Shown piece by piece: positions 25,365-30,814 of a DNA stretch of 36,237 bases (positions within the stretch are counted from its first letter, which is position 1; every line of letters begins with the position of its first letter). Below the pieces are notes generated by a model, which saw only the letters and a list, made by a program, of their open reading frames with translations, searched no databases and was not told where the DNA came from. The DNA comes from a virus, in IMG/VR virus record IMGVR_UViG_3300034524_000191, positions 1 through 36,237 of that record. One strand, given 5' to 3'. The position numbers and the translations under genes were made by a program.

Positions 25365-25454
25365 AAACGAACCTCCTTGAGAAACACACCAAGGAAGCCC
25401 TTACCAGCTAACCGGATAGGTGAAAAGCGTTCTGGAATATCGAAAAGGCAAAAG

Positions 25455-25487
25455 AAAAGCCCCGACACCATCGGCACCGGGGCAGCA
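25455..25487 (-). terminator. Rho-independent terminator after hicB
   Basis: On the minus strand GCCCCGGTGCCGATGG...TCGGGGC is followed by TTTTCTTTT. It ends the hicAB transcript. Its core is nearly the same as the terminator at 26202-26237. Confidence 0.8.
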
Positions 25488-25511
25488 ATAAAGCGGAATA
25501 GTATCTTGCGC

Positions 25512-25910
25512 CTAAACGCTGCACCCGCTCCCAGCACAACGCAGCGCACAATCCACAATATACGCGGATCTGCTTTTACCGCTGGCCTTGGCCGCGCGGT
25601 CAATCTTGTTCCGAACGTACACCGGCATGGTGATGTTCACAGGCACGGCTTTCTTGTCCAGAAAGGACATATCCACCGGCACCAAGATCACAGCACCGCC
25701 CTCTGCCTCTGTGGAAGCGATAACAGCAGAAAGAGGTGACGGCGTAGGCGGCTCCATGTCTTCGCCTTCCATGTAGCATTCCACGGCATCCTGCACGTTT
25801 ACTATCAGCTCTTCCAAGGTGCTGGCAGCGGTAAAGCAGCCGGGAAAATCTGGAACTGTTCCGCCATAATCGGATGTAGGATCCTTGTGTACTATTACCG
25901 GATAAATCAT
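25512..25910 (-). CDS. hicB: HicB antitoxin with C-terminal ribbon-helix-helix
   Basis: 132 residues. The N-terminal HicB domain (about 1-60) has DYGGTVPDFPGCFTAASTLEELIVNVQDAVECYMEG. The C-terminal DNA-binding part (about 88-122) has VPVNITMPVYVRNKIDRAAKASGKSRSAYIVDCAL, a ribbon-helix-helix. It would neutralise HicA and bind the operator upstream of hicA. AAGGGG precedes the ATG. A hairpin in the 37-base hicA-hicB gap ends 15 bases upstream. Confidence 0.93.
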   Translation of the reverse strand: MIYPVIVHKDPTSDYGGTVPDFPGCFTAASTLEELIVNVQDAVECYMEGEDMEPPTPSPLSAVIASTEAEGGAVILVPVDMSFLDKKAVPVNITMPVYVRNKIDRAAKASGKSRSAYIVDCALRCAGSGCSV

Positions 25911-25925
25911 ATGTACATACCCCTT

Positions 25926-25950
25926 TAGGGGGGCCTTTCGGCCTCCCCTA
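25926..25950 (-). other. Hairpin between hicA and hicB
   Basis: In the minus-strand RNA, TAGGGGAGGCC-GAAA-GGCCCCCCTA folds with a GAAA tetraloop and one bulge. It contains the hicA stop codon and ends just before the hicB ribosome site. It may protect or re-initiate hicB translation so that antitoxin exceeds toxin. Confidence 0.45.
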
Positions 25951-26133
25951 TCTGAGTGTTAGTTTCGATTGTCTTCTTATGTTCCCTAGGGTTCCTTTCG
26001 GTATGTCCTTCACAGGGTGGGTTACTATGGTTATTCGCCCGTCTGGGTGTTTGAATTTCCAGTGGTCACCCTTTGTGCTAACATGAATGAACCCCGCCTC
26101 GACCAGCCTTTTGATTACCTCCGTGCTGCTCAT
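25948..26133 (-). CDS. hicA: HicA mRNA interferase toxin
   Basis: 61 residues, the family's usual size. Double-stranded-RNA-binding-like fold: SSTEVIKRLVEAGFIHVSTKGDHWKFKHPDGRITIVTHPVKDIPKGTLGNIRRQ, with the catalytic His in KGDHWKFKHP. Cleaves translated mRNA when HicB is lost. The ATG at 26133 has no ribosome site, and the best promoter places the transcript start at the ATG itself, so the mRNA may be leaderless. Toxin first, antitoxin second, as in most hicAB operons. Confidence 0.92.
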   Translation of the reverse strand: MSSTEVIKRLVEAGFIHVSTKGDHWKFKHPDGRITIVTHPVKDIPKGTLGNIRRQSKLTLR

Positions 26134-26139
26134 GTGAAG

Positions 26140-26192
26140 ACAATACGCATAATGCGCATAGCTGTCAAATAAAAATGCGCATAATGCGCATA
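26140..26192 (-). promoter_or_regulatory. hicAB promoter with twin palindromic operators
   Basis: Minus-strand promoter: TTGACA (complement of 26163-26168), a 17-base spacer and TATTGT (complement of 26140-26145). Operators: TACGCATAATGCGCATA (26144-26160), inside the spacer, and ATGCGCATAATGCGCATA (26175-26192), upstream of the -35. Each is a pair of ATGCGCAT-type palindromes; the two copies lie 31 bases (three turns) apart. Fits cooperative binding by HicB dimers. Confidence 0.75.
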
Positions 26193-26201
26193 GAAATTTA
26201 A

Positions 26202-26237
26202 AAAATACCCCCCCGGCACCATCGGCACCGGGGGGCT
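26202..26237 (-). terminator. Rho-independent terminator before hicA
   Basis: Minus strand: CCCCCCGG...CCGGGGGG stem with an 11-base loop, then TATTTTTTAAA. It stops transcripts of the 149-residue gene upstream of the hicAB promoter. Confidence 0.8.
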
Positions 26238-26242
26238 TTACC

Positions 26243-26692
26243 TTACTTTTTCACCCTATCCGCTAACAGCGGATGCACTGGAAGATCGCAGGCCATGGCC
26301 TCGCGCAAGGCTTCTTGTGCCGCCTGCAGGCGTGTACGCGAGACCTCCGGCAAATCCGCCGCCATGCTGGCCAATTCATCAAGGCATGGCTCGGCAGCGG
26401 CCAGCGCCACGCGGCCCAACTGATAGCCAGCAACCAAACGTATCTGCAGCGCTATCTCTGCCAGCTTGGGCATGTTCAGTCGCTCCGCATGGCCATCCAA
26501 TGTGGTTGCCACCACAAGCAAGGCTCGAGCTGCTTCCCGTCCCTTGTGCACATCATCGCACACCAGCACATTGCGCATGGCATCGCGTAATCCCTCATCA
26601 CTGATATGCTCCAGATCCTTATCCGCCCTTTCCGCTTTGAGCTTCTTCACCTCATCAGCAAAACTCAATACCGTCACATCGTTACCTAACAT
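26243..26692 (-). CDS. Helical protein of unknown function
   Basis: 149 residues, nearly all helix: FADEVKKLKAERADKDLEHISDEGLRDAMRNVLVCDD, then GREAARALLVVATTLDGHAERLNMPKLAEIALQIRLVAGYQLGRVAL and EVSRTRLQAAQEALREAM. No membrane segment or catalytic motif. AGGGGG precedes the ATG, and it has its own terminator. A palindrome TACAAACTTGTA (26733-26744) lies 40 bases upstream and could be its operator. Not recognised. Confidence 0.7.
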   Translation of the reverse strand: MLGNDVTVLSFADEVKKLKAERADKDLEHISDEGLRDAMRNVLVCDDVHKGREAARALLVVATTLDGHAERLNMPKLAEIALQIRLVAGYQLGRVALAAAEPCLDELASMAADLPEVSRTRLQAAQEALREAMACDLPVHPLLADRVKK

Positions 26693-26747
26693 TTTTACCC
26701 CCTAGAGTATCAGGTACGCATACACATATAAATACAAACTTGTAAAT

Positions 26748-26783
26748 CAAAAGCCCCTTGAACCATATTAGATTCAAGGGGCT
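26748..26783 (-). terminator. Rho-independent terminator of the four-gene small operon
   Basis: AGCCCCTTGAA (26752-26762) pairs with TTCAAGGGGCT (26773-26783); the minus strand then reads TTTTGATTT. It ends the transcript running from 27718 to 26788. Confidence 0.8.
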
Positions 26784-26787
26784 GCAA

Positions 26788-26991
26788 CTATTCAGCTCGC
26801 CGCCTCTCAACAAGCGCAGAGAAACTTACTTTCCCAGCTACCCATTCCTCATATTCCTCTGGAGTAAGTCCCAAGGCATCACGAAGAGAGCGCGAATCAT
26901 CCCCGTCGTGCCAGTGATCAACGGCAGTGCTATCATCTTGCGGAACGGCTTCACCAGATAAGCACTGCTCCATAAACGTGTTACTGCCCAT
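26788..26991 (-). CDS. Small acidic protein, unknown
   Basis: 67 residues. The ATG at 26991 overlaps the previous stop (TGATG), so translation is coupled. SRSLRDALGLTPEEYEEWVAGKVSFSALVERRR suggests a helical DNA- or protein-binding unit of a type common in small phage proteins. No function assigned. Confidence 0.6.
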   Translation of the reverse strand: MGSNTFMEQCLSGEAVPQDDSTAVDHWHDGDDSRSLRDALGLTPEEYEEWVAGKVSFSALVERRRAE

Positions 26992-27221
26992 CACATCAAC
27001 CGCTCCTGTTTGATCTCCTGCAGCATAGTTTTCTTTCCCGGCAACCTCGGACAGTCCAACATCATTCTCTTAGACGTGGCCGGGGGCGAATAAGGATACA
27101 TTTCTGCCTGCCGTACCGACAGCGTTTTCCCGCCCTCTACAAAGACATGCGTATCCGTCACCGTCAGAATCCGGCGCGGGGTTCCAAGTATCAACAAGGA
27201 TCCGTCCTTCTCGTATTGCAT
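26991..27221 (-). CDS. Small protein, unknown
   Basis: 76 residues: MQYEKDGSLLILGTPRRILTVTDTHVFVEGGKTLSVRQAEMYPYSP, with a beta-like N-terminal half, then a basic helical tail. GGGAGGAAGGATC before the ATG. A longer overlapping frame (27070-27342) is rejected because it lacks such a site. Second last gene of a four-gene operon. Confidence 0.6.
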   Translation of the reverse strand: MQYEKDGSLLILGTPRRILTVTDTHVFVEGGKTLSVRQAEMYPYSPPATSKRMMLDCPRLPGKKTMLQEIKQERLM

Positions 27222-27236
27222 GATCCTTCCTCCCTT

Positions 27237-27428
27237 CTATTGTCCTTCCGGCCAGCGGACGGCATCCGCCTTGCCAGTAAACACCAACCATGTGGCCTTG
27301 AGGCGGTAGCGGATCCAATTCTCTGGCCCAACGTGCCGCCATGGTACTTCCTTGCCGTTAATAAATACCTGTGCGGCGTAACAATGCTTAATCAGGTCCT
27401 GCACCCACCATATTCTAGGCGCTTTCAT
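27237..27428 (-). CDS. Small protein, unknown
   Basis: 63 residues rich in Trp and basic residues (MKAPRIWWVQDLIKHCYAAQVFINGKEVPWRHVGPENWIRYRLKATWLVF). The start shares bases with the previous stop (TAATG) behind a GGGGGG run. No family recognised. Confidence 0.6.
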   Translation of the reverse strand: MKAPRIWWVQDLIKHCYAAQVFINGKEVPWRHVGPENWIRYRLKATWLVFTGKADAVRWPEGQ

Positions 27429-27718
27429 TACAGCCCCCCTTCCAGCTCCGGCAGCTGCAGCCTGTGCGGATGCCCCATGTTCGGGTCATAGTCTCCACCA
27501 GCGTCATACAAATCATCCATGGCCAGCTCGTAACCGGCTGCGGCCTCTTTCCGGATCCACTCCAAAAGCTCCGCATCATCCAGCTTGTTCAACAGGTGTG
27601 AAGTAAGCATGGAGCGGTCACATTCTCCACCACAGCAGGGCAGCTTTTGAGATACGTGCGCACCTTCAAAAACGGCTCCGCACTTGCCGCAGATGCTGAT
27701 TACCTTGATCTCTTTCAT
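27428..27718 (-). CDS. Zinc-ribbon-like small protein
   Basis: 96 residues from the ATG at 27718 with AAGGAG seven bases upstream. Two Cys pairs (CGKCGAVF and LPCCGGEC) suggest a zinc ribbon; the rest is acidic helix (LLNKLDDAELLEWIRKEAAAGYELAMDDLYDAGGDYDPNMGHPHRL). It is the first gene after the iteron region, so its promoter may be inside or beside that region. Function unknown. Confidence 0.62.
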   Translation of the reverse strand: MKEIKVISICGKCGAVFEGAHVSQKLPCCGGECDRSMLTSHLLNKLDDAELLEWIRKEAAAGYELAMDDLYDAGGDYDPNMGHPHRLQLPELEGGL

Positions 27719-27741
27719 AGCGTCTCTCCTTTCAGACAGGA

Positions 27742-28068
27742 GGAGGGGGGTCCGGAAAAGTGTAACATTTGTAATCTCACCCATCATTTTCCTCGCAACA
27801 CCGCATGGCTCTAAGGGAAACTGTAGACAGGTGAAAATGTAATTTTACTGTAATCAGATGTAACCTAAAATGTAATCTTCAATTATTTCAGTGCATCGCA
27901 GTTACTGAACATGTGCTCAAAAAGTAACCTGCAAACTGTAATCTCGTTACACTGAAATTACATAAAAATTACACTTTTCAAATTCCAATATTATCATTTT
28001 TGTTCAAGTGGTTACACCTTGTTTTCGGAATGAGATTACAAATGTTACACTTTTCCGGACCCCCCTCC
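27742..28068. repeat. Likely replication origin: 38-bp inverted repeats around a TGTAAY iteron array
   Basis: Left arm 27742-27779 and right arm 28031-28068 are perfect 38-base inverted repeats, each with a G6/C6 block, a TCCGGA and two copies of TGTAAY. Between them lies an AT-rich 251-base core. Exact TGTAAY sites on the plus strand start at 27761, 27770, 27838, 27849, 27859, 27871 and 27937; on the minus strand they lie at 27946, 27957, 27968, 28011, 28035 and 28044. AGTAAC variants occur at 27901 (minus) and 27923 (plus). Neighbouring sites are 9-12 bases apart and converge on the centre. It lies directly after the primase-helicase gene, as P4-type origins lie near alpha, whose protein binds such repeats. 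Confidence 0.72.
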
Positions 28069-28092
28069 ACATTTGGGATTTATGATTTTCCA

Positions 28093-28135: not shown

Positions 28136-30814
28136 TTAAGCCTCAAAAACCCAGCAACGCAGGGTCTTATTAAGGTGGCGGCTGTTTACGGGGGCACTGC
28201 TGGCCACGAACTTGTGGCGCTTAGAATGGGGAAGCAACTTCTTCAGCTGCTTGATGTCGGGCAGCTCCTGCCCATTGTGAAGACACAAATCACGGAACTG
28301 GTTCAAGTTCACGGCGATAGTATCTTCTTCGCGGGAATGATTGAGCCATCCCACGGTTCCCTTGGGGGATTCGTCGTTCAGGTAACGGTAGGTTTCCCAA
28401 AACTGCTCAAGCAGGGGGTGGTCTGCAGAAAGGCGTTCTTCGCGCACCTTGGCACGTTCATAAAGATATTCCGTCAGCTTCTCGCAGCGTTCCTTAGTCA
28501 TGGATGGGAACAGTACGGAAAGCGCATACCCGCATGCAGCCACTTGAGCATGGTTTTTTATGATACGCTCCATTTTCAGCAGGCCACGACTTCTGAATTG
28601 CGTAGAGACTTCTTGAAAAGCCTTGCGGTATACATCCAGGATCTGCGTCTCATGGGTAAGCGCTTCGCGCAGAAACCCGCCGACAGTTGCAGCGCTCTGC
28701 CCTTCAAACCACTTTGCTACACCAAGCGTCTCGCGGGTGTGGTGCTTCTTGGTCACATGCACATGCACAATTCGCTGCAGAAGAGCTTCTGATCCCTCAA
28801 CTTCTGCGTTCTGACTGATAATAAGTGAAGCCTGAAACAGGTGCTCTTCAATCTCGTTGCCACGCTTGGCCACACCCAATGTGCCGGTGCTACGTCCGTT
28901 GAAGAATGGCTTGCACTCGTCAAAATTGAACATCTTGGCTTTAGCGTCTTTGTCTCCGGATCCGGTATCACGGTCCGATTCGATGATGACAACAGGCAGA
29001 TTGCTGAGCTGGTTGAATGCACGTCTTCGGCCTGCGGGCGACGACTTCATCACGTCAAACCCTTCATACTCATCACGCCCACAACACTTCCAAAGAAATT
29101 CAAGGGCGGTGGATTTACCGGCACCGGGTTCTCCGGTGAATTCAAAAAAGGGGAAGGTTTTATCCTCCGCGCGGATCTGCTGCGCAAATAGCGACCCCAT
29201 CCAAAAAGCCAGCAGGGCAAGCCCCTGCCAGCCAAATGCCAGATGATACTTTTCAAGCCAATTAGGGTTGAACTCCCCGCGAGTATGAACGGCTACCGCG
29301 ACTAGACTTGTCTTGATCCCTTTGCGGCCGATCTCAAAATAGCCATGCTCGTTGAGAGCGATTTCCTTTCCCATATGGTAGGCATGCTTCTGGTACACAT
29401 ACGTTTGCAGCTCCCTGTCGTAGCCAACGAAAGGAACTGAGGCGACAGTCAGCATGCTATGGTTCAGCCAGCGATCCCGCAGGTATTTCAGGTGGCGCAC
29501 GTCACCGTCAAAGGTGCCGCCGCGGGCCTTGGTAAGCATCGCTTTGTTGAACGCTTCCGGACTAGTGAGATGTGTACCATCCAGTCCGATAATGTCGTCA
29601 CTGTTGCCGTTTGAGTAGCAAACCTTGAACACGTAGCGTTGCTCATCCATTATCGGGTCGACTTCCATGTAAAGGAAATCGGGGTATACGTTCGATATCA
29701 AATCCACATCACAATTGGACCTGAATATATCCCGACCGCGCGGAGACTTGAGAACCGCGTCCAATAATGAATCAAATGGCTGTTGGCCATCCTCCTGCTT
29801 CTCATCCTCTTCCGTGACGTTGTTCATCAACTCTTTGTCTAGGCTGTCCGACACCTTCACACCGAACAGGGAATTACCGAACTCCAGCACGAACTTTCTG
29901 TGCCGGTTACGCACATAGTAGTGATATGCTTTTTCGTTGGCTGTCTCGGACATGAACAGCCGTCCACGATACAACCCATCTTCAATGTACTTATCCGTGA
30001 GCCTGCCGGCACGAAACAAATCATCCCAATCCTGCTTATTGGCCGGGCGGCACACCTCGTATTGTTCACCCATGGTGCGCAGTTTTTTTGCATGGCGCTT
30101 GGTGTAGTCTGCTCCGGCTTTATCACCGTCCAGCGCCAGCACCCATACCACCCCCTTGTCCTTGTGAGCCTCAATGAGCTGGCGAGGAAAGTTGGAACTG
30201 GAAATGGCTGCAGCAGCCTTAATGCCCACATGCTGCAGGGCTATACCGTGGAAGATCCCTTCAACGATGAATACGCGGTCGCCGCGCTCAATCTCCATCC
30301 CCGGAGGCGTCCATGCCATGCCCTTGAAATCGCCGAACACACGGGCCTTGCCCTTGTTCTCAGCATGCTTGTCCGGCTTGATAAGGCGCTGCCAGCAAAC
30401 GGTCTTTTCTGTGTCGACGTACACGCGCACCGTGGGTGTGAAGTAGTTGGAGTGCGGATACTGGTATGTGCCCTGATCGTACCACCCCCTGATCTTGGAA
30501 AGATCAAACCCACGGTTCATGCCCATATAGACGTTGGCCGTGCGGTCCGGCTCCGTCTCAGTGGGCGGATACTTATCAACGAAGTTTTCAAACAGCTCTG
30601 GCAGCAGATCCCGCACGGGTTCTTCCCATCCGCAGTTATTTAAACGGCTGCACTTCATCACCCACGGCTGCTCAATGCTGATAAACAACTCTTTTTTGCC
30701 GCAGCTGGGGCAGGGACCACCGCGAAGGTAGTCCCCTTTCTCTTTCAACTGGAAACGCGGATCCGCCAGAAGAGCCTGCACAATGTCACGGGCGGAAATC
30801 TCGTAGCCACTCAT
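28136..30814 (-). CDS. Primase-helicase (phage replication protein)
   Basis: 892 residues. An N-terminal zinc finger (Cys35, Cys38, Cys55, Cys61) like that of DnaG-type primases. Toprim domain with Glu185 in RVFIVEG and Asp229/Asp231 in LALDGDKAG. Linker, then a helicase/ATPase with Walker A GEPGAGKST (561-569) and Walker B LPVVIIESD (about 606-614). The C-terminus would hold the DNA-binding part. One protein could thus prime, unwind and recognise the neighbouring iteron array, as P4 alpha does. The start overlaps the ASCH gene stop (ATGA). Probably the key lytic replication gene. A cellular defence or plasmid role is less likely given its place. Confidence 0.88.
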   Translation of the reverse strand: MSGYEISARDIVQALLADPRFQLKEKGDYLRGGPCPSCGKKELFISIEQPWVMKCSRLNNCGWEEPVRDLLPELFENFVDKYPPTETEPDRTANVYMGMNRGFDLSKIRGWYDQGTYQYPHSNYFTPTVRVYVDTEKTVCWQRLIKPDKHAENKGKARVFGDFKGMAWTPPGMEIERGDRVFIVEGIFHGIALQHVGIKAAAAISSSNFPRQLIEAHKDKGVVWVLALDGDKAGADYTKRHAKKLRTMGEQYEVCRPANKQDWDDLFRAGRLTDKYIEDGLYRGRLFMSETANEKAYHYYVRNRHRKFVLEFGNSLFGVKVSDSLDKELMNNVTEEDEKQEDGQQPFDSLLDAVLKSPRGRDIFRSNCDVDLISNVYPDFLYMEVDPIMDEQRYVFKVCYSNGNSDDIIGLDGTHLTSPEAFNKAMLTKARGGTFDGDVRHLKYLRDRWLNHSMLTVASVPFVGYDRELQTYVYQKHAYHMGKEIALNEHGYFEIGRKGIKTSLVAVAVHTRGEFNPNWLEKYHLAFGWQGLALLAFWMGSLFAQQIRAEDKTFPFFEFTGEPGAGKSTALEFLWKCCGRDEYEGFDVMKSSPAGRRRAFNQLSNLPVVIIESDRDTGSGDKDAKAKMFNFDECKPFFNGRSTGTLGVAKRGNEIEEHLFQASLIISQNAEVEGSEALLQRIVHVHVTKKHHTRETLGVAKWFEGQSAATVGGFLREALTHETQILDVYRKAFQEVSTQFRSRGLLKMERIIKNHAQVAACGYALSVLFPSMTKERCEKLTEYLYERAKVREERLSADHPLLEQFWETYRYLNDESPKGTVGWLNHSREEDTIAVNLNQFRDLCLHNGQELPDIKQLKKLLPHSKRHKFVASSAPVNSRHLNKTLRCWVFEA

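Follow-up and report, generated by a model that had tools for sequence, protein, structure and literature searches.

Positions 27742-28068 of this stretch are very probably the place where a P2-like bacterial virus starts copying its DNA. The window, by which we mean the whole 36,237-nucleotide record that was analyzed, carries P2-type capsid, scaffold, terminase and portal genes, an integrase and a CII-like regulator. Our best reading of the module, to which we assign a probability of roughly 0.86, is a bidirectional theta-type origin that is bound by the adjacent primase-helicase through a winged helix and onto which two hexamers are loaded. A first-pass annotation of the sequence had already raised a phage replication origin. 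That idea is now supported by the unique density of the repeats, by their conservation in relatives, and by the absence of an array above chance in four P2-like phages that have a different initiator.

The first-pass annotation had reported 13 exact TGTAAY motifs and two AGTAAC variants in 327 bases, and our recount agrees exactly; the variants lie at 27901 (-) and 27923 (+), and the sites of the exact motifs are given in Table 1. The other 35.9 kb of the record hold 14 TGTAAY motifs, and any comparable stretch outside the module holds at most two, i.e., the density is unique within the record. In 3000 dinucleotide shuffles of the module, the motif occurred 0.74 times on average and at most 5 times. 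The arms at either end were verified as perfect 38-bp inverted repeats (100% complementary, with 251 nt between them), each carrying two TGTAAY motifs and one G6/C6 block. The reported spacing of 9-12 bases within runs is correct for sites on the same strand. The proposed division into plus-strand sites on the left and minus-strand sites on the right holds broadly but is imperfect: a plus-strand site at 27937 is next to a minus-strand site at 27946, and the two variants also break the pattern. The array is better described as two mirror-image half-arrays. When offsets are counted from the outermost iteron of each half, the iterons are at 0, 9, 76, 87 and 98 on the side of the primase gene and at 0, 9, 77, 88 and 98 on the other side. 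A word-agnostic scan for this geometry found a sole match in the window, at 27761-28049. The array is intergenic, and lies 3' of the primase-helicase gene as had been noted, between the stop of that gene (28136, minus strand) and the probable start of the gene that follows (ATG 27718), whose longest open reading frame begins at 27787, within the module.

Table 1. Features of the proposed origin and its surroundings; coordinates are those of the window.
Feature	Position	Strand	Evidence
Whole origin-like module, two mirrored half-arrays	27742..28068	.	Motif counts, arms, shuffles, geometry scan
Outer arm distal to primase: G6 block, CGGAAAA, iterons 27761 and 27770	27742..27779	+	Perfect inverted repeat; like layout in most relatives
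Outer arm proximal to primase: iterons 28044 and 28035 (-)	28031..28068	-	Perfect inverted repeat; like layout in most relatives
Distal inner iterons 27838, 27849, 27859, 27871; offsets 77, 88, 98, 110 from arm	27838..27876	+	
Proximal inner trio 27968, 27957, 27946; offsets 76, 87, 98 from arm	27946..27973	-	Equal offsets in relatives
Lone iteron in opposite orientation, directly after proximal trio	27937..27942	+	Three direct plus one inverted, by eye, in many relatives
A+T-rich spacer from proximal arm to trio, with extra iteron 28011 (-); candidate unwinding element	27974..28034	.	A+T content; role presumed
CCGCATGGC, possible degenerate counterpart of CCAGYAACCAYGCGGG, the second word of related arrays	27801..27809	-	Weak assignment
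Primase-helicase, 892 aa, phrog_1139, proposed initiator	28136..30814	-	AlphaFold2 model, Foldseek
C-terminal winged-helix domain, residues 828-892, proposed iteron-binding domain	28139..28333	-	AlphaFold2 fragment model
Next gene downstream; start presumably at ATG 27718	27428..27718	-	List of open reading frames

It might seem that arms of this length mark the remnant of a mobile element, i.e., 38-bp terminal repeats of Tn3-type or MITE character with an ACA flanking duplication. The usual length of Tn3-family ends is in fact 38 bp, and ACA stands beside both arms. However, a 3-bp flank match is weak, and the arms lack the usual Tn3 ending. The record contains the module only once, and near homologous primases it is found again with its internal geometry unchanged but another sequence. 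We regard a mobile element as extremely unlikely.

The base composition is uneven within the module. The A+T fraction is 0.70-0.85 in 20-base steps starting at 27952-27992, and the spacer between the proximal arm and its trio has a value of 0.70, versus 0.50 in the other spacer. In the mechanism that we propose, the primase-helicase would bind the TGTAAY iterons via its C-terminal winged helix, and each half-array, comprising the arm pair at 0/+9 and the inner trio approximately 75 bp away with its steps of one helical turn, would organize one helicase assembly. The A+T-rich DNA in the module would then melt, after which the mirror symmetry would cause two hexamers to be loaded in opposite directions. 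The fused primase would prime both forks, and replication would be bidirectional.

An AlphaFold2 model of the primase-helicase has a mean pLDDT of 89.6. In a Foldseek search, this model matched SCCmec Cch (5dgk, E-value 2.9e-14), SaPIbov1 Rep (8tch, 1.9e-12) and DnaG primases (from 1.4e-07), and Pfam identifies a Toprim domain. The sequence profile of the primase alone gave no match to Cch or SaPI Rep in the PDB. Based on the model, the protein is predicted to join a DnaG-type TOPRIM primase, an AAA+ helicase of the SCCmec Cch/SaPIbov1 Rep type and a C-terminal winged helix. The last 158 residues, modelled as a fragment, have a mean pLDDT of 96 and are predicted to form helices and a winged helix with the order strand-helix-helix-strand-strand. 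A comparison of this winged helix with the PDB gave no significant match by fold or by sequence.

The window primase shares 30-36% identity with proteins encoded by Pseudomonas, Stenotrophomonas, Escherichia and other phages. Because single-sequence peptide patterns are too specific, searches with this primase alone found no match in viral and genome contigs. We therefore aligned ten phage primase homologues, collected 80 viral and 80 genome loci, and scanned the loci for repeated 6-mers and mirror symmetry. Among 168 usable loci, 34 have a 6-mer whose count in the 450 bases past the primase stop is higher than in all 60 shuffles; the final few of them, where it occurs 6 times, are weak. The symmetry centers group at 157-300 bp 3' of the primase stop (+157 to +300). 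A blastn search of phages with the module itself found no match.

In total, at least 36 relatives with the same primase carry an array of approximately 300-370 bp that follows a fixed grammar. In each half, a pair of iterons at 0 and +9 is followed by about three at +74-77, +84-88 and +95-98, and the other half is its mirror image. The iteron word itself changes among relatives: we observed TGTAAY, GGTAAY (including GGTAAT), CCTAACC/GGTTAGG, CCGGAACA, CGGGACA, TGGAAGG, GCGAACC, CGAATG, CATTACA, TTAACA and others. With most words, the outer arms have a G-rich block and CGGAAA preceding the first iteron, followed by the two-iteron pair.

To quantify this geometry, we pooled 52 half-arrays, in which 123 of 153 further sites fall in 17 of 118 positions, where 22 would be expected (p = 1e-74). 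A second set of half-arrays came from a scan of 2.9 million IMG/VR viral contigs with one GTAAY arm pattern, which returned 52 contigs, most with 10-16 GTAAY motifs in the array. Two of the matches, L197 and L215, are not arrays (3 and 2 motifs, respectively), and the same scan with a CCTAACC arm found no match. This set was found with the arm motif alone, and the pattern fixes only positions 0 and +9. Among its 41 non-redundant half-arrays, 92 of 129 sites fall in the same 17 of 118 positions, where 18.6 would be expected (p = 4e-48); some of these contigs are possibly related to first-set loci, and there is partial relatedness among the arrays. It is important to note that both p-values mean little beyond the rejection of chance, because sites were treated as independent and are not fully so.

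The array is kept beside or near homologous primase genes, the setting in which the first-pass annotation had expected conservation. Adjacency is not universal, because some phages have the array upstream of the primase (L043, L045 and L073) or 1 to 5 kb downstream (L017, L021, L100, L101/L188 and L112/L186). Several relatives, e.g., L018, L019 and L105, have no array in the fetched stretches. A repeat cluster near 8.8 kb in L107 (CGTTCA) was set aside as likely coding repeats. In a tree of the primases, the loci with arrays are clustered; the array label of this tree understates the spread, because flanks were short. Most distant relatives are labelled there as having no array, and whole genomes showed that short flanks account for at least part of these labels. 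The nearest relatives of the window primase in the tree are one viral contig and Desulfovibrionales, and the host of this phage is therefore probably of that group.

We also asked how closely array and primase travel together. When 50 contigs from the arm scan were searched over their whole length, all 11 that are at least 30 kb long and have a real array encode the C-terminal domain of the primase, and the sole long contig without this domain (L197) has no array. The primase is the only protein family present in all of 30 array loci compared, a result that shows just that no other gene is shared, because the loci were fetched through the primase.

In complete phages that carry this primase, the word-agnostic scan found one place each in Dobby, phi3, Smp131, ev239 and 2F_1 (scores 7-10) and a weaker array in HboP_4908 (score 6). 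The ev239 array lies at 28390-28650 of NC_049392. The scan missed an array of CTGACA in PfPro that is visible by eye, and found none in the ZY1 record. In P2, 186, HP1 and Fels-2, the scan gave scores of at most 5, which shuffles also reach, so these phages have no array above chance. Because all twelve phages share P2-type terminase and portal genes and an integrase, we conclude that the array goes with the replication protein. Rolling-circle replication is the textbook mode of P2 and its classical relatives, and P2, 186, HP1 and Fels-2 use gpA for it. Like the window, these phages have the same structural module, but their nick site is annotated inside gene A (P2 and 186), with no iteron array above chance. 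Conversely, the 36-kb record gave no match to the rolling-circle initiator family Phage_GPA (PF05840) in a search that was positive for an E. coli control. None of the complete phage records with this primase that we examined annotates an origin.

These phages also bear on two functions other than replication. The first is packaging: in a cos site, the iterons would be binding sites of the terminase and the G-block would lie near the cut. Repeats are indeed present in lambda cos sites, and the array is near the end of the record or on the portal side in Dobby, Smp131, 2F_1 and HboP_4908, roughly where P2 has its cos. However, the four phages without an array above chance have the P2-type terminase and portal, and the annotated cos of P2 and 186 is a 19-nt end. 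Moreover, 4.8 kb with several open reading frames separate the array of the window from its portal gene, and in phi3 the array is next to the primase, at a distance of 3.1 kb from the portal. A cos site is therefore very unlikely in our estimation. The second function is integration, since arm-type sites of an integrase are repeats around a core, and on the circular map of Dobby the array and the integrase gene lie close together. We give hardly any credence to an attP region with such sites: in the window, the array and the integrase gene are 6.4 kb apart, and P2 and 186, whose attP is annotated, do not have such an array.

Alternatively, the module could serve not as an origin but as an operator or a partition-like region to which a phage repressor or antirepressor binds. 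A regulator may bind the array, because L216, L219 and L242 encode, near their arrays, proteins that join the same winged helix to a Bro-N/antirepressor-like or Rha-like N-terminus. However, these fusion proteins are found in only three of 52 contigs, while the primase is common to all array loci compared. In addition, ten to sixteen sites of fixed phase in mirrored halves exceed what is usual for operators. We consider an operator highly improbable as the function of the array, and prefer the origin; it is possible that the stand-alone fusion proteins are regulators or competitors at it.

The fusion proteins are about 272-276 aa long (L242:4518-5342, L216:3700-4515 and L219:1455-2282) and are encoded about 0.5-1 kb from the array. 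Their N-termini were named by eye, as Bro-N/antirepressor-like in L242 and L216 and as Rha-like in L219. The L216 contig also encodes a full primase.

Given a fixed layout and a changing word, we compared closely related primases whose words differ. In three such comparisons (L118/L121 versus L122, L108/L152 versus L020, and L043 versus L045), a one-base change of the word (GGAACA/GGGACA, CTAAC/CGAAC and GTAAC/GTGAC, respectively) coincides with a change from Ala to Thr in the same wing region. The pairs that share a word, L118/L121 and L108/L152, keep Ala. This joint change is suggestive only and may serve as a lead, as each pair has other differences too. We found no clear effect when asking whether the winged helix diverges faster than the rest of the protein as the word changes. 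On balance, we think it somewhat more probable than the contrary that these modules form a class of phage origin spanning the whole family, with a fixed layout (mirrored, 0/+9/~75/~86/~97) and a word that drifts with the winged helix of an initiator type that has been little studied, which would give each lineage a private replication specificity, and that the fused antirepressor-like protein of some phages could compete for the origin or regulate it.

An iteron origin of a self-loading helicase is a known kind of origin. The first-pass annotation had compared the module to that of satellite phage P4, whose alpha protein combines primase and helicase and acts on short iterons through an origin-binding domain at its C-terminus. 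This is the right type of system, as the window shares the fused primase-helicase and the short iterons, with a putative C-terminal binding domain. However, by structure the helicase is closest to SCCmec Cch and SaPIbov1 Rep, and no P4 alpha structure is among the matches listed in our structure searches. P4 also needs two separate regions, ori and crr, while the window, like each complete phage genome found to have the array, has it at a single site. Iteron plasmids of the RK2, R6K and pSC101 type likewise have phased short repeats next to A+T-rich DNA, as the window does. They differ in that their iterons are long and direct, and in that their Rep has no helicase or primase and host DnaB is loaded.

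The best reading is that the module works like a SaPI/Cch origin but has its own architecture. The points of likeness to the Rep/ori of SaPIs (SaPIbov1 and SaPI5) and to the putative origin of SCCmec Cch/Cch2 are an initiator helicase of the same fold (by Foldseek, on the modelled structure) and a C-terminal DNA-binding domain in the initiator, putative in our case. A third is an array of short iterons beside the initiator gene, usually just 3' of it; SaPI Rep uses its C-terminal domain to bind iterons that lie immediately downstream of its gene (PMC7581432). Unlike in these systems, the helicase of the window is fused to a DnaG/TOPRIM primase. Compared with the SaPI and SCC origins as described in passages of that source, the module is also distinguished by its mirrored halves, its arms (G-block, CGGAAA and iteron pair) and the fixed positions 0/+9/+75/+86/+97. 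Modules of the window type sit in P2-like prophages of mostly Gram-negative hosts.

In the open literature that we searched, we found neither an origin described for these phages nor any account of a mirrored fixed geometry with interchangeable words, of the arms, or of a fusion to a DnaG-type primase in P2-like phages. Many P2-like phages carry this primase in place of the rolling-circle machinery of classical P2. The conserved geometry could readily be used to test how self-loading hexameric helicases are placed on DNA, and serves as an origin finder that is independent of the repeat sequence. The drifting word and the small C-terminal domain form a natural series for reading a recognition code, and this series could predict which prophages can or cannot cross-replicate.

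Related arrays contain a second conserved word, CCAGYAACCAYGCGGG, with 15 matches in 12 kb of arrays versus 13 in 329 kb outside them, an enrichment that is biased upward because the consensus was drawn from arrays. It is found in the array spacers of L022, L005, L107, L099, L106, L108, L272 (about 575-600) and others, often inside a short AACCC...GGGTT hairpin, and on one strand in all array copies scored. The assignment of CCGCATGGC as its counterpart in the window is weak, because this copy falls below the threshold used for the matches.

Two further observations concern individual genes. In Smp131 (L010/L273), the annotated primase, at about 25406-28088, ends early, and the tblastn match goes on in another frame, with two pieces at 25481-28088; this suggests a frameshift or a sequencing error near the 3' end. 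In the window, the open reading frames at 25948-26133 and 25512-25910, both on the minus strand, resemble a HicA/HicB toxin-antitoxin pair, judging from sequence alone.
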